Notes under the pieces: model-generated | The model's database searches: none | What the model was told of the DNA's origin: nothing | Seen by the model: the letters and a program-made list of their open reading frames with translations, nothing else | Shown: positions 21,078-31,494 of the stretch, piece after piece | How the letters are laid out: each line of letters begins with the position of its first letter | How positions within the stretch are numbered: the stretch's first letter is position 1 | DNA from: an uncultured Ruminococcus sp. | GTDB lineage: Bacteria; Bacillota; Clostridia; Oscillospirales; Ruminococcaceae | Assembly: GCA_902787825.1 (NCBI GenBank) | Contig: CADAHS010000004.1 | Location: 107,953 to 171,952, forward strand | Length of the DNA stretch: 64,000 bases | Direction of reading: 5' to 3' | Translations under genes and position numbers: made by a program

Positions 21078-21599
21078 TTAATATGGTTCAATAACAACTG
21101 CTTTTCCTTGTTCCAGTGATTGCCTGACATCAATAAATCTCTGGTTGGAACTTCCCATAAATTTAAGCTCAAGACTTCTTTTAGCGAGCACGAATGGTCC
21201 ATCTACAAGATAATCAAGCTCTTTCAAAAGCTCCATATAACCGTTTTCTTCATCAGCATTAGCCACAAGGTATTCATATGTGTAACCGGTGTATGAGATT
21301 ATGTTGAGTGGAGTGATGAATCCGTCATAAGCACGGATCTTTCTGGCAAGCTCAGTAAGCGGCTTGCATTGGCAAAAAGGGTCTCCCCCACTGAATGTAA
21401 CGCCGTCAAGCAGTTTATCCTTTATTATTTCATTGAAAAGGTCATCTGTATCGACTTCTTTACCGCCGTTAAAATCATGTGTCTGAGGATTGTGACAGCC
21501 TTCACAGTGATGAGGACAGCCCTGTGTAAATATCGTATATCTGAAACCGGGGCCGTCAACGATAGATTCGTTTACAGTGCCTGCTATCCTTATTTTCAT
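21078..21599 (-). CDS. nrdG: Anaerobic ribonucleotide reductase activating protein
   Basis: NrdG is the radical SAM activase that generates the glycyl radical on NrdD. The 173-residue product has the CX3CX2C motif at C28, C32 and C35, the N-terminal SIVDGPGFR typical of glycyl-radical activases, and FSGGDPF. ATG at 21597-21599 follows a GGAGGG site seven bases upstream; a possible ATG 15 bases earlier overlaps that site. It is the second gene after nrdD, with a terminator hairpin between them that would lower its expression. Confidence 0.95.
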   Translation of the reverse strand: MKIRIAGTVNESIVDGPGFRYTIFTQGCPHHCEGCHNPQTHDFNGGKEVDTDDLFNEIIKDKLLDGVTFSGGDPFCQCKPLTELARKIRAYDGFITPLNIISYTGYTYEYLVANADEENGYMELLKELDYLVDGPFVLAKRSLELKFMGSSNQRFIDVRQSLEQGKAVVIEPY

Positions 21600-21632
21600 T
21601 AGGTATCCCTCCATATCTAAAAGAAAAAAATC

Positions 21633-21667
21633 GGGCTTCGTTTCACCTGACAGCAGAAACGAAGCCC
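21633..21667 (-). terminator. Intergenic terminator between nrdD and nrdG
   Basis: Twelve-base perfect arms (GGGCTTCGTTTC and complement) with an 11-base loop, followed on the minus strand by GATTTTTTTC. No promoter is evident between it and nrdG, so nrdG is probably transcribed by partial read-through. Confidence 0.92.
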
Positions 21668-21688
21668 CTAAAAAGAGAGCATACTTGA

Positions 21689-23929
21689 CTATGCTTTGAG
21701 GCGTGGGATTCTTTCATGGCAGACCCGTTTGTGCTCAGCTTCGGTCCTGCCGCATTTAGGACATTTGTCTCCGATTATTCCCGTGTAACCACAAACCGGG
21801 TCACGATCTACGGGGTGGTTGATAGAACCATAACCGATACCGACTTCCTTCATATATCTTACGACCTTTTCAAATGCCGTAAGATTGTTAAGCGGATCTC
21901 CGTCAAGCTCAATATAGCTGATATGACCTGCATTGGTCAGAGCATGATACGGAGCCTCTATTTTAAGCTTATCAAATGCATTGATATTATAATAAACCGG
22001 AACATGGAAAGAGTTGGTATAATACTCCCTGTCCGTTACGCCCTTGATCTCGCCGTAACGTTTCTTATCCATCTTGACGAAACGACCGGAAAGTCCCTCG
22101 GCTGGAGTTGCAAGAAGTGAGAAATTAAGACCTGTCCGTTTAGTTTCCTCGTCCATTCTGGCTCTCATTCTAGTGATTATCTCAAGGCCAAGCTTTCTTG
22201 CCTCCTCATCTTCACCGTGATGCTTGCCTGTAAGGGCTACAAGGCACTCTGCAAGTCCGATAAAGCCAACAGAAAGAGTACCATGTTTAAGGACCTCTTC
22301 AACAGTATCGTCCTCGTTGAGTTTTTCTGAATCTATCCAGACACCTTGTCCCATAAGGAACGGGTAATTCTTGACTTTCTTCATGCACTGGATCTTGAAT
22401 CTGTGTTTGAGCTGATCTATACATAGCTGCATCATGTCATCAAGACTATCAAAGAATTCACCGATATTTTTATTTGCCTTTATACCAAGGCGAGGAAGAT
22501 TTATAGATGTAAATGATAGATTTCCTCTTCCGGTAACGATCTCTCTTGAGGGATCATGCGCATTTGAGATAACTCTTGTACGGCAGCCCATATAAGCGAT
22601 CTCAGTGTTTGGATCTCCTTCTTTATAGTACTGAAGATTGTATGGGGCATCTATGAACGAGAAATTCGGGAAAAGACGTTTTGCCGATACTCTGCAGGCA
22701 AGCTTGAATAGGTCGTAGTTAGGATCAGTAGGATTGAAATTTACACCCTCCTTGACCTTAAAGATATGTATCGGGAAAATAGGTGTTTCACCATTGCCAA
22801 GACCTGCTTCTTCAGCAAGAAGAACATTCTTGATTACCATTCTGCCCTCAATGGAGGTATCTGTACCATAGTTTATTGAACTGAATGGTGTCTGAGCGCC
22901 TGCACGAGAATTCATGGTGTTAAGGTTATGTATAAGAGCCTCCATAGCCTGATAAGTTGCTCTGTCAGTCTCTTTTACAGAAGTCTTATATGCAAAACTC
23001 TGTATTTTCTTTACAGTCGGCGCATCAACGATCTGAACAAGAAGCTTAGCCTCAGCGTCCTGATACCCATTGTCGTTGGCAAGAGTTGGAACGTAGCCTT
23101 TTTCTTCAAGCTGATCGACAAGCTTTTTTGCTATAGCTTGTGAATTATCAAATCCGCCAAGCAGGTTAAGTGCCCTATGGACATTGTCACGATATCTGTG
23201 TCTGAATGTCTTTGCAACACCCTCAGACATATCATAATCAAACTTAGGCAGTGACTGACCGCCATGCTGATCGTTCTGGTTTGACTGGATAGCAATACAA
23301 GCCAACGCAGCATAGCTGGATATATCATTTGGAGTTCTCAGATGACCATGTCCTGTGGAAAAACCATTCTTAAAAAGCTTTGTAAGATCTATCTGAGTGC
23401 AGGTAGTAGTAAGAGTGTAAAAATCCATATCATGGATATGAATATCTCCCTCTGCATGCGCTTTAGCGTGCACTGGATCTAAAACATACATTTCGTAAAA
23501 TTCTTTGGCACCGACAGAACCGTATTTAAGCATAGTACCCATAGCGGTATCGCCGTCTATATTAGCATTTTCACGCTTCAGATCAGAATCTTTAGCAGAC
23601 TTGAAAGTAAGATCCTCGTATACTTTCATCAGTCTTGTGTTCATTTCTCTTGCACGAGTTCTTTCTGATCTGTAAAGAATATAAGCCTTTGCAGTAGCAG
23701 CGTGACCTTCATTTATAAGGACCTTCTCAACGCAGTCCTGGATCTGTTCAACAGTAGGAGAAGTAAGATTCTTTTCCATAAGCATATCAACGACTTTACC
23801 GGAAAGTATAAGAGCTTCCTCCTGGTCAGAGCCGCCAACAGACTGTGCTGCTTTATAAATAGCATTAGCGATTTTTTCTATATTAAAAGTAACTGTTCTA
23901 CCGTCACGCTTTTTTATCTTAATGATCAT
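21689..23929 (-). CDS. nrdD: Anaerobic (class III) ribonucleoside-triphosphate reductase
   Basis: NrdD reduces ribonucleotides to deoxyribonucleotides without oxygen, using a glycyl radical. The 746-residue protein starts MIIKIKKRDGRTVTF, an ATP-cone allosteric domain (about residues 1-95), followed by the catalytic barrel. The ATG at 23927-23929 has a GGAGGAA site; a longer in-frame reading lacks one. The C-terminus is odd: it reads DPVCGYTGIIGDKCPKCGR and ends 20 residues later. The usual order, a four-cysteine zinc site followed by an R-V-[T/S/C]-G-Y radical loop, is not seen; G714 in VCGY is the only candidate radical glycine and C713, C723, C726, C737 the only cysteines near it. Identity is sure; the radical site is not. 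Confidence 0.92.
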   Translation of the reverse strand: MIIKIKKRDGRTVTFNIEKIANAIYKAAQSVGGSDQEEALILSGKVVDMLMEKNLTSPTVEQIQDCVEKVLINEGHAATAKAYILYRSERTRAREMNTRLMKVYEDLTFKSAKDSDLKRENANIDGDTAMGTMLKYGSVGAKEFYEMYVLDPVHAKAHAEGDIHIHDMDFYTLTTTCTQIDLTKLFKNGFSTGHGHLRTPNDISSYAALACIAIQSNQNDQHGGQSLPKFDYDMSEGVAKTFRHRYRDNVHRALNLLGGFDNSQAIAKKLVDQLEEKGYVPTLANDNGYQDAEAKLLVQIVDAPTVKKIQSFAYKTSVKETDRATYQAMEALIHNLNTMNSRAGAQTPFSSINYGTDTSIEGRMVIKNVLLAEEAGLGNGETPIFPIHIFKVKEGVNFNPTDPNYDLFKLACRVSAKRLFPNFSFIDAPYNLQYYKEGDPNTEIAYMGCRTRVISNAHDPSREIVTGRGNLSFTSINLPRLGIKANKNIGEFFDSLDDMMQLCIDQLKHRFKIQCMKKVKNYPFLMGQGVWIDSEKLNEDDTVEEVLKHGTLSVGFIGLAECLVALTGKHHGEDEEARKLGLEIITRMRARMDEETKRTGLNFSLLATPAEGLSGRFVKMDKKRYGEIKGVTDREYYTNSFHVPVYYNINAFDKLKIEAPYHALTNAGHISYIELDGDPLNNLTAFEKVVRYMKEVGIGYGSINHPVDRDPVCGYTGIIGDKCPKCGRTEAEHKRVCHERIPRLKA

Positions 23930-24011
23930 AAATTCTTCCTCCGAAGTCTTCATATTTTTATAAAAACGATTTACTTTATCGCTGTAAGCTAATAATAGCA
24001 GTCGAATACCG

Positions 24012-24076
24012 ACCACAATATGTTGTGGTTCGGATTGAACAATTCAAAGTATATAGTATTTATCCGATACTGTCAA
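24012..24076 (-). promoter_or_regulatory. nrdD promoter with paired NrdR-box-like sites
   Basis: The promoter is TTGACA (24071-24076), 17-base spacer, TATACT (24048-24053). A near-palindrome with arms ACCACAA/TTGTGGT at 24012-24029 contains CAATATGTTG, which matches the NrdR box core CWATATATWG at nine of ten positions. A weaker copy (AAGTATATAG, 24047-24056) overlaps the -10 box. Their centres are 31 bases apart, three helical turns, as is usual for NrdR pairs. NrdR would repress nrdDG when dATP is plentiful; nrdR itself is not in the window. Confidence 0.85.
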
Positions 24077-24545: not shown

Positions 24546-25181
24546 TTATTGTTCTGAAAGATCTTTTCTGATAAAATGTGTAGGCAGCCAAGGCTCGTTT
24601 TTGGGCATTGCATATTTTTCCTTCCCAAGTGCAATGCATTTTATCAGAAAACTCATATTTCTTGCAAGCTTTCTCATGGTCTGTAATCCCTCTGCATCAT
24701 ATGCAGCTTCTCCAATCTCTCTGCCATGAACACTATTCCAGTAACTACTTGATGCAACAGGCATTCCACTTATAGTAAAATACTTGTTAAGCTCGTCAAA
24801 GGTTGCTGAACAGCCTCCCCTTCTTGCAACGACTACGCAGGCACCAACTTTCATAGTTTTATCAAATGGTGTGCTGAAAAACAATCTGTCAAGACAGGCT
24901 ATTAATGTAGCATTTGCAGATGCATAATAGACAGGAGATGCAACTATCAGCCCGTCTGCTGCTTCAAATTTTGGGGCAAGCTCATTTACAGTATCGTTGA
25001 AAACACAATGTCCAAGTTCAGCACATTTACCACAGGCAATGCAGCCCCTGATGTCCTTATTGCCGATCTGGCATACCTCTGTTTCGACACCTTCTTCTTT
25101 GAATGTTTTCAAAAGCTCATCTACTGCTGTGGCTGTATTTCCGTTCACCCTCGGACTTGCGTTGATTATCAGTACTTTCAT
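24546..25181 (-). CDS. Flavodoxin-like NADPH-dependent FMN reductase family protein
   Basis: A 211-residue flavodoxin-fold protein: N-terminal MKVLIINASPRVNGNT is the FMN phosphate-binding loop, SPVYYASANA the second flavin-contacting loop. A Cys cluster GCIACGKCAELGHC at residues 45-58 is common in iron-sulfur flavoproteins and the NAD(P)H-dependent FMN reductases of Clostridia. No signal peptide: cytoplasmic. Start ATG at 25179-25181 with an AAAGGAGA site. It follows the aldo-keto reductase gene by 13 bases and shares its divergent promoter. Confidence 0.85.
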   Translation of the reverse strand: MKVLIINASPRVNGNTATAVDELLKTFKEEGVETEVCQIGNKDIRGCIACGKCAELGHCVFNDTVNELAPKFEAADGLIVASPVYYASANATLIACLDRLFFSTPFDKTMKVGACVVVARRGGCSATFDELNKYFTISGMPVASSSYWNSVHGREIGEAAYDAEGLQTMRKLARNMSFLIKCIALGKEKYAMPKNEPWLPTHFIRKDLSEQ

Positions 25182-25194
25182 ATTATCTTCTCCT

Positions 25195-26241
25195 TTACCA
25201 GTTTTCATATCTTTGACCTGTATGCAGGTTTTTCATTCTTTCCATCTCATCGTCAGTTAGTTCAAAATCAAATATGCTGTAATTCTCAAGTATATGATCC
25301 GGGTTCTGGGAACCGGGGATCGTTATATACCCTGCTTGTAAATGCCATCGCAGGATTATTTGTGCAGGAGTTTTCCCGTGATCATCTGCTATTGCTTTAA
25401 TTGTTTGATTTCCGAACAGATCCTGTGTATGTCCTCTTCCACCAAATGGATACCAGGATTCGACAACAGTACCATACTGTGATACATATTGTTGCAATTC
25501 ATTGTTCTGGAAGAACGGGTGATTTTCATTTTGTACGACAGCTGGCATTATATCTCCGCCCGAGACTACTCTGTCATATTCTTCGGCGGTATAGTAATTG
25601 GAAATTCCTATTGATCGCAGCTTTCCATCTTTTACTCCTTTGCACAAAGCCTTGTAGACCTCCACATCACCACTTCCCGACTGGTGTATAAGCATAAGAT
25701 CTATATAGTCTACCCCGAGCTTTCTGAGAGAGTCATCTATTGAACTATAAGCCCTGTTAAAATTTGAAGGCATTACCTTGGTCGTTATAAAAACGTCCTC
25801 ACGTTTGACTATACCTTCATTCACTGCTCTTTTTAAGCCGTTTCCCACGCCTTTTTCATTTCCGTAGTATTGTGCTGTGTCTATGAGCCGATATCCGTCT
25901 TTAAGCGCTGAGTACACTGAGCTTTCTGCTGTGCGATCATCAAGTGTCCATGTTCCAAGCCCTATTATTGGCATTTCGTATCCACTGTTAAGTTTGACTG
26001 TTTTTTTATCAAAATCAAATTCAGGCATATTTTTCTCCTTTGTATCCGAGCGTGAACTATCATCGGATACATCAGCTTTGTTTTGTGATTTGTTTTGCTC
26101 TGCATTTGTATCAATTTCACTATTGTTGCTCATTGCTTCATGCTGCTTCTCGATTATGGCTTTGTTTTTACCATCTGAACTGCAAGATACAAAGCAGACC
26201 GCCATTAGAACGAAAAATGTAATCTTAATAATCTGATTCAA
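25195..26241 (-). CDS. Aldo-keto reductase with a lipoprotein signal
   Basis: This 348-residue protein has a lipoprotein signal (lipobox FVSC, C20), a polar linker to about residue 70, then a complete aldo-keto reductase barrel. The catalytic tetrad is present: D121, Y126, K155 and H186 (in RLIDTAQYYGN, ITTKVM and MLIHQ), with the C-terminal IPGS cofactor-phosphate loop. Reductases of this family use NADPH and are normally cytoplasmic, so an exported form is unusual. The start is TTG (26239-26241) after AGGGGG. It may act with the lipid-anchored flavodoxin across the divergent promoter, but the electron donor and substrate are unknown. Confidence 0.85.
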   Translation of the reverse strand: MNQIIKITFFVLMAVCFVSCSSDGKNKAIIEKQHEAMSNNSEIDTNAEQNKSQNKADVSDDSSRSDTKEKNMPEFDFDKKTVKLNSGYEMPIIGLGTWTLDDRTAESSVYSALKDGYRLIDTAQYYGNEKGVGNGLKRAVNEGIVKREDVFITTKVMPSNFNRAYSSIDDSLRKLGVDYIDLMLIHQSGSGDVEVYKALCKGVKDGKLRSIGISNYYTAEEYDRVVSGGDIMPAVVQNENHPFFQNNELQQYVSQYGTVVESWYPFGGRGHTQDLFGNQTIKAIADDHGKTPAQIILRWHLQAGYITIPGSQNPDHILENYSIFDFELTDDEMERMKNLHTGQRYENW

Positions 26242-26282
26242 ATAGTTTCCCCCTTTTATTATTACTATTATATTTTTTTATT

Positions 26283-26435
26283 ATTATAACATATAAAAAA
26301 TAGAATTACAAATACTTATACCTAATATTCAACTATGCCTAATAAGTATATATTCAGCAATTTTGTCTATAACATATTTGCATATCAAGTTATTTGATAT
26401 AAGTATTTGTAATTCGATAAGCTGTGTGATATAAT
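26283..26435. promoter_or_regulatory. Divergent promoters inside an 18-bp perfect inverted repeat
   Basis: Two mirror-image promoters: minus strand TTGTAA (26306-26311), 17 bases, TATAAT (26283-26288); plus strand TTGTAA (26407-26412), 17 bases, TATAAT (26430-26435). Each -35 box lies in one arm of a perfect inverted repeat, GAATTACAAATACTTATA at 26303-26320 and its complement at 26398-26415. The motif ATAAGTAT occurs again at 26342-26349 between them. The symmetry suggests one regulator controlling both units; no regulator gene adjoins. Confidence 0.85.
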
Positions 26436-26474
26436 TAAAAAAACAAAAATAAACAATAATTGGAGGTTGTAAAA

Positions 26475-27038
26475 ATGAAAAAAATCAGAGCAGTATTGAT
26501 CATGTTGATGATCTCGGCGATGCTTCTGTCATCGTGCGGTAGTTCTTCTTCAAGTTCAAAGGAAGATAATGCAAGTCAGTCTCAGTCGTCAGCGAGCGAG
26601 AAAAAATCTGTTGCAAAAGATGGTGCAGATATGCAAACAAAAGACAAAAAGATGCCTACACGAAATGTTCCTAAAAATGGAACGAAGATCAATATGTATT
26701 TTGGCGATACGGTGATACCCGGTGTTCTTAACGATTCAGAAACCGCAAAAGCACTGATAGCTAAACTTCCTTACACACAAAAGGTAAGCAGATATTCGCA
26801 CGATTTCTGCGGTGTTACACAGGAACTACCATATGATAAGGATAGTGTTCATTATGGTTGGCTTAACGGGGATATAGACTATGCGACAGATGCACCGTAT
26901 TTTACGATACTCTTTGAAGATGAGGAATCCTCTGAGCAGTATGGCAATCAGGTGAATATCGGCGTTATAACCTGTGAGCTTGAAAAGATCAGCTCACTTC
27001 AGGGTGAATATGACGTAAGGATCGAGCTTGCAGAATAA
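26475..27038 (+). CDS. Cyclophilin-like-fold lipoprotein
   Basis: A 187-residue protein with a lipoprotein signal (lipobox LSSC, C21), a Ser-rich and charged linker to about residue 70, and a C-terminal domain (INMYFGDTVIPGVLNDSETAKALIAKLPYT...) typical of the small bacterial cyclophilin-like proteins. These share the fold of peptidyl-prolyl isomerases but their activity is not established. The domain is often found beside flavodoxins and reductases in gut Clostridia, as here. ATG at 26475 after GGAGG; a TTG upstream overlaps the ribosome site. Confidence 0.82.
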   Translation: MKKIRAVLIMLMISAMLLSSCGSSSSSSKEDNASQSQSSASEKKSVAKDGADMQTKDKKMPTRNVPKNGTKINMYFGDTVIPGVLNDSETAKALIAKLPYTQKVSRYSHDFCGVTQELPYDKDSVHYGWLNGDIDYATDAPYFTILFEDEESSEQYGNQVNIGVITCELEKISSLQGEYDVRIELAE

Positions 27039-27050
27039 GGAGAGAAAACT

Positions 27051-27704
27051 ATGAAACGATATGGTACTGCAATTATAACTACTTTCGCTCTTTTATCAGC
27101 TATTCTAACCGGCTGCGGCGACAAAAGCAATAACGACAGTATACAGCCAAAACCAGTGAACAATTCAGCTGTTGTCTACTTCAGCAGAGTTGGCAATACG
27201 GATTTTGCTGATGATGTTGATGTAACTACAAGTGCAAGTCTGAATCGTGAGAATGGTGAATTAAAAGGCAATGCACAGCTAATTGCTGAATGGATCGCAG
27301 ATGAGGTAAATACTGAAACGGTTGAGATCGTTACTGAGGAAAAATATCCTGAAAATTACGATTCAACTGTAGATCAGGCGAAGAACGAACAGGGTGATAA
27401 GGCACGGCCAAAACTGAAAAACAGTATTGATGTTAAAGATTTGGACACGATCTGGCTTGTTACTCCGAACTGGTGGTACGATCTGCCGATGCCTGTATAT
27501 ACATTCTTTGACGAATATGATCTTTCAGGAAAGAACATATTTGTGTATGTGACCCATGAAGGCAGTGGATTCTCAAAAATAATTGATACGATAAAGGATC
27601 TTGAACCTGATGCGCAGGTCGTTGAGGTATTATCTGTCAAAGGAGGCTCAGTTAAAGATGAGGAGCAGAAAATTCGTGATAAAACCAAAGAAATGATAAA
27701 GTAA
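27051..27704 (+). CDS. Flavodoxin-like lipoprotein
   Basis: A 217-residue flavodoxin-fold protein with a lipoprotein signal (lipobox ILTGC, C22). After the linker, AVVYFSRVGNTD is the phosphate-binding loop region, TPNWWYDLPMPVYTF the W-containing flavin loop of the flavodoxin_4 type, and YVTHEGSGFSK the C-terminal flavin segment. Lipid anchoring would put this FMN carrier outside the membrane. It follows the cyclophilin-like gene by 12 bases with an AGGAGA site and is the last gene before a terminator. Confidence 0.85.
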   Translation: MKRYGTAIITTFALLSAILTGCGDKSNNDSIQPKPVNNSAVVYFSRVGNTDFADDVDVTTSASLNRENGELKGNAQLIAEWIADEVNTETVEIVTEEKYPENYDSTVDQAKNEQGDKARPKLKNSIDVKDLDTIWLVTPNWWYDLPMPVYTFFDEYDLSGKNIFVYVTHEGSGFSKIIDTIKDLEPDAQVVEVLSVKGGSVKDEEQKIRDKTKEMIK

Positions 27705-28455: not shown

Positions 28456-28806
28456 TCATTTTACAGATCTTGTCGCAACTATATCAACACCTGTATCTGC
28501 AACATTTTTAATTACAATCTCCCCCATTTTTATTGGAAGATGGACGCTTGTTTCTTTGATCTGACTAACTGTTTCAAAAATTTTTCCTTTGGCAACCGGA
28601 TCCTTGGTTTTAACCGGTACAGGGATACCCGAATCTGACATAATTGTTGTTGTTACCGTTCTTACCGGAGCAATAATCTCACTTTTTGCGTAATTTTCAC
28701 CTCTTATACAGTTATTTCCCGATACAGATATGACTTCGTCGTTTTCTACCTCAGCTTTTAGTGAACAGCCCATAGGACAACAGATACAAGTAAGTTCCTT
28801 TATCAT
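28456..28806 (-). CDS. DUF1667 protein
   Basis: A 116-residue protein with an N-terminal cysteine set CICCPMGCSL plus a later C (NNCIRGE), a likely iron-sulfur or metal site. DUF1667 proteins are regularly encoded with GlpA/GlpB-like flavoproteins, as here (four-base ATGA overlap with the preceding gene), and probably carry electrons or form a third subunit of that oxidoreductase. The C-terminal half lacks recognisable motifs. Confidence 0.88.
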   Translation of the reverse strand: MIKELTCICCPMGCSLKAEVENDEVISVSGNNCIRGENYAKSEIIAPVRTVTTTIMSDSGIPVPVKTKDPVAKGKIFETVSQIKETSVHLPIKMGEIVIKNVADTGVDIVATRSVK

Positions 28807-30077
28807 TTCTGCACCTCCTCAACGAATACTTCTATTGTATCGTCAATATCAGAAAGCTTATTCTTTTGGATTATCAGATCTACCATTTCGCTGGGAACAA
28901 GTATCTGAGATCTTTTTCTCATCAGCTCTGTATCACCGCTTTTGAGTATAATAGAAACATTTTTATACACACCTGTTACTCTGAAACGTATATGAGTTAG
29001 TTCAGGTGCATTGTCAATATTGATCCTACATGGTACTGTATATCTGACACCGTTGCCTGCTTTCACTTCTATGGTTTTTCCACTTTCAGATCCGCCATTA
29101 AGAATAAACCTTGCAGCATTCTCGCCAGCTCTTTGTGATTCTTCAGATACAAAGTCAACAAGATCATGAACATGAAGTACATTTCCGCAGGCAAACACAC
29201 CGTTAACATTAGTTTGCAGACTCTCGTTAACATAAGCTCCATTGGTTCTTGGGTCGATCATTACTCCAGCGCCAACGGTAAGTTCATTTTCCGGAATAAG
29301 TCCACAGGAAAGCAGCAGTGTATCACATGGATAATATACTTCGGTTCCGGGGATCGGCTGGCATTTTTCATCGACCTTTGCTATATAGACACCTTCAAGC
29401 TTTTCTTTGCCTTTGATATCAACCACAGTATGACTAAGCAAAAGCGGGATCCCATAGTCATCAAGACACTGAACGATATTGCGTTTCAAACCGCTTGAAT
29501 AAGGCATAAGCTCTGCAACAGCAGAGACCTTTGCTCCCTCAAGCGTCATTCGCCTTGCCATTATCAGTCCAATATCTCCGGAACCTAAGATCACAACCTG
29601 TTTACCTATCTTCACGCCCTGTAGATTGACAAGTTTCTGCGCTGTACCTGCTGTATAAACGCCCTGTGGTCTGAAACCGGGGATATTTAATGCACCTCTT
29701 GGTCTTTCACGGCAGCCCATAGCAAGTATAACAGCTTTAGCGTACAAAGTCTGTACACCTCGCTTTGAGCTGATTACTGTCACCGCTTTCATTGCGTCAG
29801 TGGTCGTTTCAAGTGAAAGCACCATAGTTTCAAGTTCAAAAGGTATATTCTGCTGAATTACCATATCTGCGTATCTTTCGGCATATTCAGGACCGGTAAG
29901 CTCCTCTTTAAAAGTATGCAGACCAAATCCGTTGTGTATACACTGGTTAAGGATACCGCCGAAAACATTGTCACGCTCAATGATCAGCAGATCATCAATA
30001 CCTGCCTTCTTTGCGGCAAGTGCAGCAGCCATTCCCGCAGGACCACCGCCGATCACAATAAGATCGTATTTATTCAT
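28803..30077 (-). CDS. NAD(P)/FAD-dependent oxidoreductase, GlpB-like partner
   Basis: A 424-residue flavoprotein with an N-terminal FAD motif GGGPAGMAAALAA, a central second Rossmann motif GSGDIGLIMARR near residue 170, and a C-terminal FAD-contacting FACGNVLHVHDLVD. This is the disulfide-reductase-like subunit that accompanies GlpA-like dehydrogenases. Start ATG at 30075-30077 with GGAGGCAGG; it overlaps the preceding gene by eight bases. Likely role: passing electrons from a hydroxy-acid or glycerol-3-phosphate-type substrate; substrate not provable. Confidence 0.87.
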   Translation of the reverse strand: MNKYDLIVIGGGPAGMAAALAAKKAGIDDLLIIERDNVFGGILNQCIHNGFGLHTFKEELTGPEYAERYADMVIQQNIPFELETMVLSLETTTDAMKAVTVISSKRGVQTLYAKAVILAMGCRERPRGALNIPGFRPQGVYTAGTAQKLVNLQGVKIGKQVVILGSGDIGLIMARRMTLEGAKVSAVAELMPYSSGLKRNIVQCLDDYGIPLLLSHTVVDIKGKEKLEGVYIAKVDEKCQPIPGTEVYYPCDTLLLSCGLIPENELTVGAGVMIDPRTNGAYVNESLQTNVNGVFACGNVLHVHDLVDFVSEESQRAGENAARFILNGGSESGKTIEVKAGNGVRYTVPCRINIDNAPELTHIRFRVTGVYKNVSIILKSGDTELMRKRSQILVPSEMVDLIIQKNKLSDIDDTIEVFVEEVQK

Positions 30078-31494
30078 CGTCCTGCCTCCTGTCTGTATCA
30101 AATGCACCTGTTTTCTTTACATCAGCTAAACTGATCCCAAGCTTTGATGCTATCAAAGCCATTGTAGTCGGTAAACAGAATCCAGCCTGACATCTGCCCA
30201 TACCAGCTCTGGTACGTCTTTTAACTCCATCGAGAGTAGTTGCTCCCAGCGGTCTGTTTATCGCATCAAGGATCTCGCCTTCGGTGACATATTCACATCT
30301 GCAAACTATTCTTCCGTATGAAGGATCTTTGCTGATTAGTTCATTCTGCTGATCATTTGAAAGATCAAAGAAATGAACTAACCCTTTCCTTGTATCAATA
30401 AAGTTATCTTTTTGCACAAGTTCGATAATACCGGAAATGATCTTGCACACATATTCACCTATTGCAGGGGCAGAACTAAGCCCCGGAGACTCGATGCCTG
30501 CAACATCAATAAAGCCTTTGATATCACTTTGTTCGATAATAAAGTCTCCTGTATCTCCAACTGCACGAAGTCCCGAAAACCCTGTAATGACCTTGTTGAA
30601 CGGAATGTTCTTTACTGAAAGCGAACCTTTGGCTTTGACCTCGTCAAGACCGTGCTTGGTGGTTGATACATCCTGTTTATCATCAAGATCTTCTGCCGTC
30701 GGTCCAGCAAGGAGATTTCCGTGTACAGTCGGTGTAACAAGAATACCCTTGCCCATTTTAGTCGGAAGCTGGAATATCGTCCTGCTAATAAGCCCGCCTG
30801 CTGCTTTATCCATAAGCATATACTCGCCTCGTCTTGGGACTATCTTCATAGGCTGTGAGCTTATCATTGAATGTACCTCATCAGCAAAGACGCCTGCTGC
30901 ATTTACAACTATTTTGCATTGGATATTGCCTTTATCGGTCTTAACATTAAAAGTATCTCCATTCTTGCTGATGCCGGTTACTTTGGTGGACAGCCTGAAC
31001 TCAGCGCCATTTGCAAATGCATTTTCAGCAAAAGCGAGTGTCATTTCAAATGGACAGACTATTGCTGAGGTTTGTGCCCAAAGAGCTGCCTTAACGTTAT
31101 CTGAAAGTGAGGGCTCAAGTTTTCTGGCTTCTTCACCTGAGATTACACTGACCCCATCAACGCCATTGATAACTGCTCTTTGCTTGAGTTCTTCGAGCTT
31201 TCCAACATCAGCCTCATCAAAGCAAAGCACCATAGCGCCGTTTTGCTTATAAGCAAAATCAAGCTTACTTGAAAGCTCTTTTATCATTTTACTTCCACGG
31301 ACATTTAATTCCGCCTTCAGTGTGCCTGGTTTAGCATCAAATCCGGCGTGGACGATCGCACTATTAGCTTTTGAAGTCCCTTCGCAAACGTCGCTTTCCT
31401 TTTCGACTACACAAACAGAAAGCTTATATTTAGAAAGCTCTCTTGCCACTGCACAGCCGACTGCACCTGCTCCAATAACGAGAATATCGTACAC
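30070..31494 (-). CDS. FAD-dependent dehydrogenase with BFD-like 2Fe-2S domain, GlpA-like
   Basis: A 474-residue protein: D-amino-acid-oxidase-fold FAD domain (GAGAVGCAVARELS, residues 7-20; TSKANSAIVHAGFD), then a C-terminal BFD-like 2Fe-2S-binding domain with cysteines in CRCE and MGRCQAGFC. This is the architecture of anaerobic glycerol-3-phosphate dehydrogenase subunit A and related 2-hydroxyglutarate-type oxidases. Neither glpK nor a glycerol transporter is nearby, so the substrate is uncertain. The start is GTG (31492-31494) five bases after GAGGTG. First gene of a four-gene operon. Confidence 0.87.
   Translation of the reverse strand: MYDILVIGAGAVGCAVARELSKYKLSVCVVEKESDVCEGTSKANSAIVHAGFDAKPGTLKAELNVRGSKMIKELSSKLDFAYKQNGAMVLCFDEADVGKLEELKQRAVINGVDGVSVISGEEARKLEPSLSDNVKAALWAQTSAIVCPFEMTLAFAENAFANGAEFRLSTKVTGISKNGDTFNVKTDKGNIQCKIVVNAAGVFADEVHSMISSQPMKIVPRRGEYMLMDKAAGGLISRTIFQLPTKMGKGILVTPTVHGNLLAGPTAEDLDDKQDVSTTKHGLDEVKAKGSLSVKNIPFNKVITGFSGLRAVGDTGDFIIEQSDIKGFIDVAGIESPGLSSAPAIGEYVCKIISGIIELVQKDNFIDTRKGLVHFFDLSNDQQNELISKDPSYGRIVCRCEYVTEGEILDAINRPLGATTLDGVKRRTRAGMGRCQAGFCLPTTMALIASKLGISLADVKKTGAFDTDRRQDDE

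Follow-up and report, generated by a model that had tools for sequence, protein, structure and literature searches.

An enzyme that reduces aldehydes appears to be anchored on the outer face of gut and rumen bacteria, alongside flavin proteins that could supply it with electrons across the membrane. In the explanation that we favor, four genes of an uncultured Ruminococcus sp., located in a stretch of 64,000 nucleotides (the window), would belong as one branch to a regulon for an extracytosolic redox module, in which electrons pass from a membrane cytochrome to a flavodoxin and from there to a surface carbonyl reductase, probably under LysR control. Based on sequence comparisons, we give this explanation as a whole about even odds (a probability of roughly 0.5). 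NAD(P)H is unavailable outside the cell and nicotinamide enzymes are therefore treated as cytosolic, and an aldo-keto reductase (AKR) at the cell surface is unexpected, as its kind normally depends on a cofactor confined to the cell interior. A conserved clade of exported AKRs that keep their catalytic residues, have a changed cofactor pocket and are repeatedly fused to flavodoxins suggests that membrane-run nicotinamide chemistry may exist. A preliminary description had already proposed an extracytoplasmic electron-transfer system for this locus, and export, co-regulation, the intact AKR and an extracytosolic redox role can be retained from it, whereas NADPH is unlikely and the flavin need not be free.

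Gene layout and the shared 16-bp site

The four open reading frames lie at positions 24546-27704 as previously described, and three carry lipoprotein signals (Table 1). The lipoboxes proposed at C20, C21 and C22 were recovered by manual count as FVSC, LSSC and LTGC, respectively. In the AKR, the C20 lipobox is followed by a linker of about 58 residues, and the AKR domain begins at about residue 79.

Table 1. Features of the locus, with positions in the window.
Feature	Position	Strand	Evidence
FMN_red (NADPH-dependent FMN reductase / flavodoxin-like fold), cytoplasmic	24546..25181	-	Pfam PF03358 E 2.7e-28
Lipoprotein AKR, DkgA-like	25195..26241	-	Pfam PF00248 E 2.3e-46; TTG start
AKR cofactor segment Gly310-His316, GSQNPDH (DKGR K232G + R238H)	25294..25314	-	G 79/79, H 79/79 alignment columns
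AKR clade-specific loop GGRGHT, residues 267-272	25426..25443	-	Alignment, first G and R 79/79
Operator-like 16-bp site ATTACAAATACTTATA facing AKR promoter	26305..26320	+	Exact match
Inverted second 16-bp copy facing cyclophilin-like/flavodoxin promoter	26398..26413	-	Exact match
Cyclophilin-like (TM1367-type) lipoprotein, Cyclophil_like2, C21 lipobox	26475..27038	+	Pfam PF18050 E 5.6e-15
Flavodoxin_4 lipoprotein, C22 lipobox	27051..27704	+	Pfam PF12682 E 2e-12; PDB 3klb E 1.4e-6
Putative ApbE-flavinylation-like motif D57-VTTSA-S63, flavodoxin beta1-alpha1 insert	27219..27239	+	Motif form and position as in the available text of PMC11334425

Co-regulation of the two halves had been suspected, and the evidence for it is stronger than first claimed, as an exact 16-mer is present as an inverted pair inside the divergent promoter and faces both halves. 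The genome contains four exact copies, compared with about 0.003 expected under a first-order Markov model, and the only two beyond the window's pair are associated with related genes. The third copy (C8:52093) precedes a second lipoprotein flavodoxin gene, which is followed directly by a gene for a DUF4405-FGE-flavodoxin protein, and the fourth is located between a LysR gene and a small ORF, the latter followed by a second cyclophilin-like lipoprotein gene. Near-exact copies are found in relatives beside the same gene types. The LysR protein may bind the 16-mer, and it probably controls the module. With up to three mismatches, the 16-mer is not enriched in the genome (60 copies versus 67 for the reversed control), and weight is therefore given to exact and near-exact sites only; no module gene adjoins the genome's sole one-mismatch copy (C5:93964). 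Promoter-like hexamers fit both sides of the divergent promoter: the site facing the AKR overlaps the TTGTAA of a -35-like hexamer that starts at 26311, and a promoter-like site (26407-26435) is found beside the inverted copy. Hexamers of this type do not, however, show a significant excess there (19 versus 14.6 expected, sd 3.4).

The exported reductase and its cofactor pocket

Export was judged by eye and by a script that combines a lipobox pattern with a hydrophobicity rule and is not a trained predictor. The relatives examined are the best 80 of at least 574; 78 loci were usable after L179 and L233, which lack a usable AKR ORF, had been dropped, and at least three of the 80 (L155, L156 and L164) are contigs already contained in the query profile. 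In these 78 loci from the best 80 of at least 574 relatives, the script assigned an export signal to 70 AKRs (49 lipoprotein signals and 21 other N-terminal hydrophobic signals), and the failure of signal prediction that had been named as speaking against the proposal did not occur. Among the eight relatives called cytosolic by the script, three (L160, L174 and L224) have signals by eye, and the other five are truncated or ambiguous. The script found lipoprotein signals in six of the eight AKRs of the query profile; in the other two, L006 and L008, which are fused to a cyclophilin-like domain, the start is uncertain. The FVSC lipobox of the window AKR is non-canonical, with phenylalanine at position -3, while the lipoboxes of its orthologues are mostly canonical, and in one relative a natural fusion protein consists of a signal, three SLH domains, Flavodoxin_4 and the AKR.

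We take the enzyme to belong to the AKR5-type family (2,5-diketo-D-gluconate reductase A/B, DkgA). DkgA is also its best NCBIfam match, with 219.6 bits, which is below the equivalog cut-off of 425, and its identity to most cytosolic homologues is about 35-45%. In a phylogenetic tree, the exported AKRs, labeled as such by membership of relative sets and not row by row, form a clade with a support of 100/99 that is separate from 29 cytosolic homologues. The AKR shares the fold and the catalytic tetrad with DkgA, and it differs by its export, by two exchanged pocket residues, by a lengthened loop, and by the fusion of its relatives to flavodoxin or cyclophilin-like domains. The tetrad (Asp, Tyr, Lys, His) is present in 79/79 aligned clade members, in agreement with the earlier view that the enzyme is not a relic. 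The cofactor site, believed before to be of NADPH type, has instead an NADH-type look: the Lys/Arg pair is absent from the clade, with Gly/His in 79/79 aligned members, and, as these are the two ligands of the NADPH 2'-phosphate (K232G and R238H in 2,5-DKG reductase numbering), the use of NADPH is unlikely to judge from the alignment. Other residues of the dinucleotide site are retained (Ser233 79/79, Glu 79/79, Asn 77/79). For the C-terminal segment, the best-scoring PDB chain was 1m9h, an engineered mutant that we take to be an NADH-using DKGR A made in the laboratory from the cytosolic enzyme; unlike it, the window AKR is natural, and the likeness is drawn at two positions. At both, the window AKR has residues identical to those of 1m9h, for which the available text of PMC4580623 gives K232G and R238H. 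As an export signature this pair was rejected, as it is also found in three cytosolic homologues (L014, L016 and L017). As far as the alignments indicate, the clade is marked better by the longer loop: its consensus in the clade is GGRG[H/N]T, and the GGRG is missing from the 29 cytosolic homologues, aligned separately, whose corresponding region is 1-5 residues shorter.

Flavodoxin, cytochrome and cyclophilin-like partners

Domains of the flavodoxin (FLD), cyclophilin-like (CYP) or DUF4405 families are near or fused to the AKR in 54/78 loci from the best 80 of at least 574 relatives (FLD 39/78, CYP 30/78, DUF4405 16/78; neighbors counted irrespective of export), so that the absence of co-occurrence, which the preliminary description had regarded as refuting, was not encountered. 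The 80 loci span 0.99 Mb, for which chance predicts about 0.9 FLD, 0.3 CYP and 0.2 DUF4405 copies, an approximate comparison, as the background comes from a Pfam search of a 61-genome panel and the observed counts from phmmer. Among the 78 main genes of this best-80 sample there are 14 CYP-AKR and four FLD-AKR fusions, and one neighbor gene encodes a CYP-FLD fusion; DUF4405-FLD and DUF4405-CYP fusions are present in other relatives, and a DUF4405-AKR fusion was not seen among the relatives examined. Nine genomes of the panel contain a long AKR match that is at least 50% identical; among them, Flavodoxin_4 occurs in 9/9 (40/61 overall), Cyclophil_like2 in 8/9 (30/61) and DUF4405 in 6/9 (25/61; no match in G011, G028 and G059). 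This co-occurrence is weak, and we therefore relied on neighborhoods and fusions.

The window flavodoxin is an exported Flavodoxin_4 protein whose C22 lipobox was recognized by eye and by script. Its insert DVTTSAS resembles the [S/T]GA[S/T]-like flavinylation motif with Ser in place of Gly, an exchange also seen in other exported flavodoxins (DAVSSAS, DAITSAS); the nearest orthologue has TRAS instead of TSAS, a form that the motif count admits. The motif was found in 21/78 exported versus 0/43 cytosolic flavodoxin rows and is missing from the other 57 exported rows (174 matches gave 121 distinct rows after removal of duplicates and of eight without recognizable beta1). It is also absent from this genome's second flavodoxin and from the DUF4405-FGE-flavodoxin. 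The single ApbE of the genome is encoded on contig 34 beside an Rnf-like operon, and thus not beside the window flavodoxin gene, and ApbE is present in 55/61 panel genomes, which makes co-occurrence uninformative. With the motif and without an adjoining apbE, the window flavodoxin is a likely ApbE substrate by its sequence, and not a proven member of the ApbE-flavinylated Flavodoxin_4 proteins. The earlier idea of flavin supplied outside the membrane holds as regards an extracytosolic redox role, but the flavin need not be free, as the lipoprotein flavodoxin carries an ApbE-type motif in its beta1-alpha1 insert.

DUF4405 has one family match in the genome, on contig 8, and none in the window. 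Four histidine columns are invariant in 38/38 rows, and a DUF4405-like domain in L125 is below the Pfam cut-off. According to the available text of PMC11334425, DUF4405 proteins are heme-b cytochromes, and Flavodoxin_4 proteins with a beta1-alpha1 insert of this kind are covalently flavinylated; both together form a published system (Huang, Meheust, Barquera, Light 2024). Our module resembles this system, as far as that text describes it, in the exported Flavodoxin_4 with a motif in the insert, in the four central histidines of the cytochrome, and in the grouping of apbE, DUF4405 and flavodoxin genes in some relatives (L043, L127 and L128), and it differs in that ApbE and DUF4405 are encoded on other contigs here. 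The flavodoxin and cytochrome parts are thus already known. In the main text of PMC11334425, the terms 'aldo' and 'cyclophilin' have no occurrences, the AKR and cyclophilin-like parts being absent there, and the text available to us holds no mention of the LysR regulator and its site. The AKR and cyclophilin-like parts of such a module were also not found in the literature searched.

The cyclophilin-like domain was modeled by AlphaFold with a pLDDT of 86.4 and a pTM of 0.82, and its best Foldseek match was TM1367 (1zx8, E 2e-6), with classical cyclophilins at E 4e-3 and weaker. Its nearest fold is therefore the atypical cyclophilin TM1367/AF2241 (PF18050/PF04126), and TM1367 itself has, to our knowledge, no assigned function. 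Unlike these proteins, the domain is part of a lipoprotein here and is fused to AKR, DUF4405 or flavodoxin in relatives. An identity with PplA was rejected, as the NCBIfam match covers only residues 5-62 (signal and linker) and is far below the cut-off.

Proposed electron path and competing explanations

In the module that we propose, the DUF4405 transmembrane heme-b cytochrome, encoded elsewhere in the genome, with one gene downstream of a further exact 16-mer and possibly under the same control, would bring electrons across the membrane, and lipoprotein flavodoxins, in some of which FMN is probably fixed covalently by ApbE, would carry them outside. The surface-anchored AKR would take these electrons via an NAD(H)-type site remodeled by K232G, R238H and the loop, and would use them to reduce carbonyls, among which reactive aldehydes or ketones are the likeliest, with the TM1367-type domain as a possible adaptor or chaperone of the complex. 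On the cytosolic side, the FMN reductase may handle the same stress together with a second AKR, a CMD-family protein and an alpha/beta hydrolase. The electron flow, its direction, the substrate class and a nicotinamide that is resident and not diffusing are what we infer; we are not aware of any extracellular NAD supply. A nicotinamide enzyme with resident cofactor outside the cytoplasm is the Zymomonas glucose-fructose oxidoreductase, which is exported folded with its cofactor by the Tat system; it has a different fold, and the signals in the window look Sec/lipoprotein-type. More tentatively, and rather doubtfully in this full form, a new family of surface-anchored AKRs (lipoproteins, S-layer domains, possibly cellulosomal dockerins) could extend across Clostridia, Treponema and other gut or rumen bacteria, with the nicotinamide resident in the remodeled pocket or dispensed with, recharging by DUF4405-fed flavodoxins, and a dedicated LysR switch in Ruminococcus; extracellular electron transfer would then drive an enzyme of the NAD family.

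It is rather unlikely that the exported proteins are co-regulated without exchanging electrons, with separate envelope roles and fusions that merely ease shared export: unrelated redox genes are often mixed in LysR regulons and the predicted CYP-AKR fusion has no confident domain arrangement (pTM 0.55), but the strong neighborhood enrichment and the fusions that join the DUF4405, FLD, CYP and AKR domains in several pairings argue against it. We also regard as unlikely a reverse flow, in which the surface AKR oxidizes an alcohol or sugar, flavodoxin re-oxidizes the NADH formed, and DUF4405 passes electrons into the membrane. AKR reactions are reversible, an NAD-type site suits oxidation, many sugars are met in rumen hosts, and the reductases of one relative set (R. 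flavefaciens-type) incorporate a segment resembling a dockerin, a match suggestive only (Pfam E 0.044, below cut-off, in one scanned protein; PDB 5lxv, E 0.32). Against this, the gene set, with its DkgA-like AKR and members of the CMD and alpha/beta hydrolase families, seems suited to dealing with aldehydes or electrophiles, and most of the named relatives are presumably anaerobic fermenters.

An AKR that no longer depends on nicotinamide and takes hydride or electrons straight from the flavodoxin FMN would fit the longer loop and the missing pair of 2'-phosphate ligands, both traits shared by all 79 aligned members, as well as the flavodoxin-AKR fusions and the lack of a known external NAD source; the retained dinucleotide-site residues and the presumably NADH-using best structural match make it improbable. 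That the enzyme is an ordinary cytosolic AKR with a misread or inefficient signal is very improbable: the poor FVSC lipobox, the TTG start and the simplicity of signal detection would allow it, yet the signals in the sampled relatives, the SLH fusion and the separate clade in the tree contradict it. With the favored electron path, the published DUF4405/flavodoxin path would gain a possible end enzyme in rumen and gut bacteria that is directly testable. Whether this enzyme reduces plant aldehydes or carbonyls from diet or drugs would be relevant to the chemistry of host and feed.

The cytoplasmic FMN reductase, previously thought to complete the set, is present here and frequent in relatives but not a constant partner, with FMN_red-type genes of two kinds annotated in 17/78 and 7/78 loci (best 80 of at least 574 relatives). 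No export signal was seen at its N-terminus by eye. The ORF (24546-25208, minus strand) opens at 25208, and the likelier start is the ATG at 25181, preceded by AAAGGAG as read from the sequence. This second gene of the minus-strand unit encodes a C-x2-C-x2-C-x5-C stretch, GCIACGKCAELGHC.

Exported reductases and their cofactor site

The cluster consists of two divergent units. In the leftward one, an aldo-keto reductase (AKR) that is a lipoprotein is encoded together with a cytoplasmic FMN_red protein; the rightward one encodes a cyclophilin-like and a Flavodoxin_4 lipoprotein. The three lipobox cysteines were found at C20, C21 and C22, exactly where the preliminary description had placed them. 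The draft genome (G000) amounts to 2.59 Mb in 85 contigs and is closely related to, among others, Ruminococcus flavefaciens and rumen Ruminococcus MAGs.

Coordinates of the cluster, its surroundings and related features (window positions unless a related locus, L, is named)
Feature	Position	Strand	Remark
Anaerobic ribonucleotide reductase NrdD, probable radical activase	21078-24016		adjoins cluster; activase named from sequence
FMN_red protein	24546-25181	-	leftward unit
AKR lipoprotein	25195-26241	-	leftward unit
Common region of the two units	26242-26474		
16-mer copies	26305-26320; 26398-26413		
Cyclophilin-like lipoprotein	26475-27038	+	rightward unit
Modeled cyclophilin-like domain	26661-27035		
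Flavodoxin_4 lipoprotein	27051-27704	+	rightward unit
DUF1667 protein, pyridine-nucleotide-disulphide-type oxidoreductase and a further ORF	28456-31494	-	downstream of cluster
Of these, the further ORF	30070-31494	-	FAD oxidoreductase by look of sequence
DUF4405-FGE-flavodoxin fusion	L063:6994-9168		G000 contig 8
66-residue ORF next to LysR	L064:6922-7119		G000 contig 37; cysteine-rich
ApbE gene immediately 5' of RnfC/RnfD/RnfG-like genes	L126:3469-7547		G000 contig 34; Rnf families named from sequence
SLH-flavodoxin-AKR chain	L210:4611-6644		
Two-part segment	L163:7794-7973		
Two-part segment	L159:7296-7478		

A profile from eight AKRs of the clade, run on species genomes, listed 574 relatives, and the best 80 were kept; by record title, these come from Ruminococcus, Lachnospiraceae, Erysipelotrichaceae, Selenomonas, Treponema and other taxa, and many are MAGs. 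At the 78 usable loci among these best 80 of 574, a script assigned a lipoprotein signal to 49 and another hydrophobic N-terminus to 21, and three more export signals were recognised by eye. In a tree of limited sampling, where the cytosolic side includes several long branches, the 86 rows of the exported sets are split from 29 cytosolic homologues of the same order with support 100/99. Judged by its sequence, the window AKR belongs to this exported family. A cytosolic role is hard to reconcile with the single chain of L210, which reads signal-SLH-SLH-SLH-Flavodoxin_4-AKR and carries a DAVSGAT motif in the linker preceding the flavodoxin.

The catalytic tetrad (Asp, Tyr, Lys, His), earlier described as intact, is indeed present in the window AKR and kept in all 79 aligned members (the 78 loci from the best 80 of 574, plus the window), which also share a loop of the form GGR[G/S]x[T/A], its fifth residue being H in 48/79 and N in 30/79. 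This loop, which we take to lie beside the dinucleotide in the AKR structure, exceeds its equivalent in the 29 cytosolic homologues by one to five residues. In the same 79 members, Lys232 and Arg238 of 2,5-DKG reductase A (DKGR A) are replaced by Gly and His, and the best PDB match for the cofactor segment is the engineered DKGR A structure 1m9h, which carries the same Gly and His and was reportedly engineered for NADH use. On these grounds, NADPH, the cofactor originally proposed, is unlikely, and NADH or resident NAD appears more likely. K232G and R238H are among the changes listed for the mutant (PMC4580623). The Gly/His pair is no mark of export, as three cytosolic relatives also have it.

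Linked partners and flavinylation-like motifs

Near or fused to the AKR, we found a flavodoxin at 39/78, a cyclophilin-like domain at 30/78 and the membrane cytochrome DUF4405 at 16/78 usable loci (best 80 of 574), and any of the three at 54/78. From the background density, some 0.9, 0.3 and 0.2 copies, respectively, would be expected in the same DNA, a comparison that is approximate because the counts came from different searches and partly different taxa. Among the same 78 main genes, 14 are cyclophilin-like-AKR and four flavodoxin-AKR fusions, and one cyclophilin-like-flavodoxin fusion adjoins an AKR main gene. DUF4405-type domains are joined to flavodoxin in L125 (window's genome), L035, L140 and L141, and to a cyclophilin-like domain in L143; we saw no DUF4405-AKR fusion. 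Gene neighbourhoods and fusions indicate that these four partners are linked. In L063, DUF4405 and Flavodoxin_4 are fused with a formylglycine-generating-enzyme-like (FGE) domain in one protein, and L036, L037, L135 and L136 have similar fusions.

Since the cyclophilin-like domain is fused to AKR, DUF4405 and flavodoxin, our data suggest that it is an adaptor. Its predicted model (pLDDT 86.4, pTM 0.82) has TM1367 and AF2241 as nearest folds, and classical cyclophilins match only at E 4e-3 and weaker. A weak match at rank 36 is chain J of 8s7v, the methyl-coenzyme M reductase activation complex (TM 0.53, E 0.014).

The window flavodoxin carries DVTTSAS within the insert following beta1, the same place as in an ApbE-flavinylated Flavodoxin_4 described in PMC11334425, where DUF4405 was shown by experiment to be a heme-b membrane protein and is described as co-occurring with apbE and flavinylated Flavodoxin_4; the flavodoxin/DUF4405 part, as described there, is already known. 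Four histidine columns of DUF4405 are invariant in 38/38 rows. With a pattern that admits TRAS, the flavinylation-like motif was found in 21/78 exported vs 0/43 cytosolic flavodoxins (121 distinct rows; Fisher p 3.6e-5, uncorrected for relatedness of the rows), and a DUF4405-flavodoxin fusion of the window's genome reads DAVSGAS. The genome has a single ApbE copy, adjoining Rnf-like genes; the RnfG-like protein there contains DDMTAAT. Two observations count against this picture: the motif is absent from the second flavodoxin and the DUF4405-FGE-flavodoxin fusion of the window's genome, and the orthologue of the window flavodoxin in genome G006 reads TRAS. Judging from listings of open-licence papers, nothing was found on an exported AKR with flavodoxin, cyclophilin-like or DUF4405 partners.

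A shared site and the proposed mechanism

The 16-mer ATTACAAATACTTATA has four exact copies in the whole genome vs 0.003 expected, two of which form an inverted pair in the window's divergent promoter. The contig 8 copy lies upstream of the second lipoprotein flavodoxin, after which co-directional genes encode the DUF4405-FGE-flavodoxin fusion, another FMN_red protein, another AKR and a protein of the CMD family. The contig 37 copy has a LysR regulator on one side and, on the other, a 66-residue ORF together with another cyclophilin-like lipoprotein and with an alpha/beta hydrolase. When 14 copies from six genomes were aligned, 12 faced a small ORF (two of these identified by eye), a flavodoxin, a cyclophilin-like or an AKR gene, and the remaining two (second site of G011, first of L166) an unassigned ORF adjoining an AKR gene. 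Scanning the related loci (best 80 of 574; 0.99 Mb) gave six sites at ≤1 mismatch, all in three loci of this system; the G006 and G012 contigs recur here as two of the three loci. No site turned up in three mononucleotide shuffles. The 16-mer overlaps the TTGTAA within a -35-like hexamer, which is followed by a -10-like one about 17 bases further. This distribution of sites indicates that the cluster genes are part of a regulon reaching beyond one cluster, and from the position of its gene we infer that LysR is the protein binding the 16-mer. The 66-residue ORF has relatives in 11/78 related loci (best 80 of 574) and no Pfam match above cut-off; its product is a possible partner of LysR.

In the mechanism we propose, LysR would sense carbonyl or electrophile stress, and the regulon would supply a cytochrome in the membrane as well as flavodoxins and a reductase outside, while cytosolic AKR, CMD-family and FMN_red proteins would deal with the same insult inside. 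Electrons would pass from cytochrome to FMN, to the AKR-bound cofactor and to the carbonyl. The nicotinamide is the weakest step: Sec-type export delivers proteins unfolded, so that the AKR would emerge unfolded and must therefore acquire NAD outside or no longer need it. We hold the module itself more firmly than the electron direction or the substrate.

A dockerin-like segment in relatives

Within the reductase lipoprotein of L157-L165, L167 and L168 (R. flavefaciens and kin) lies a two-part segment, YTVQDVRNLNDFLL...DLRGKPYDLDNDGVWSVFDLCLLKRK, that resembles a dockerin, with weak Pfam and PDB support. The window AKR is without it. Cohesin matches number 5, 10 and 10 in the genomes of L159, L163 and L168, respectively, and none was obtained in the genome of the window.
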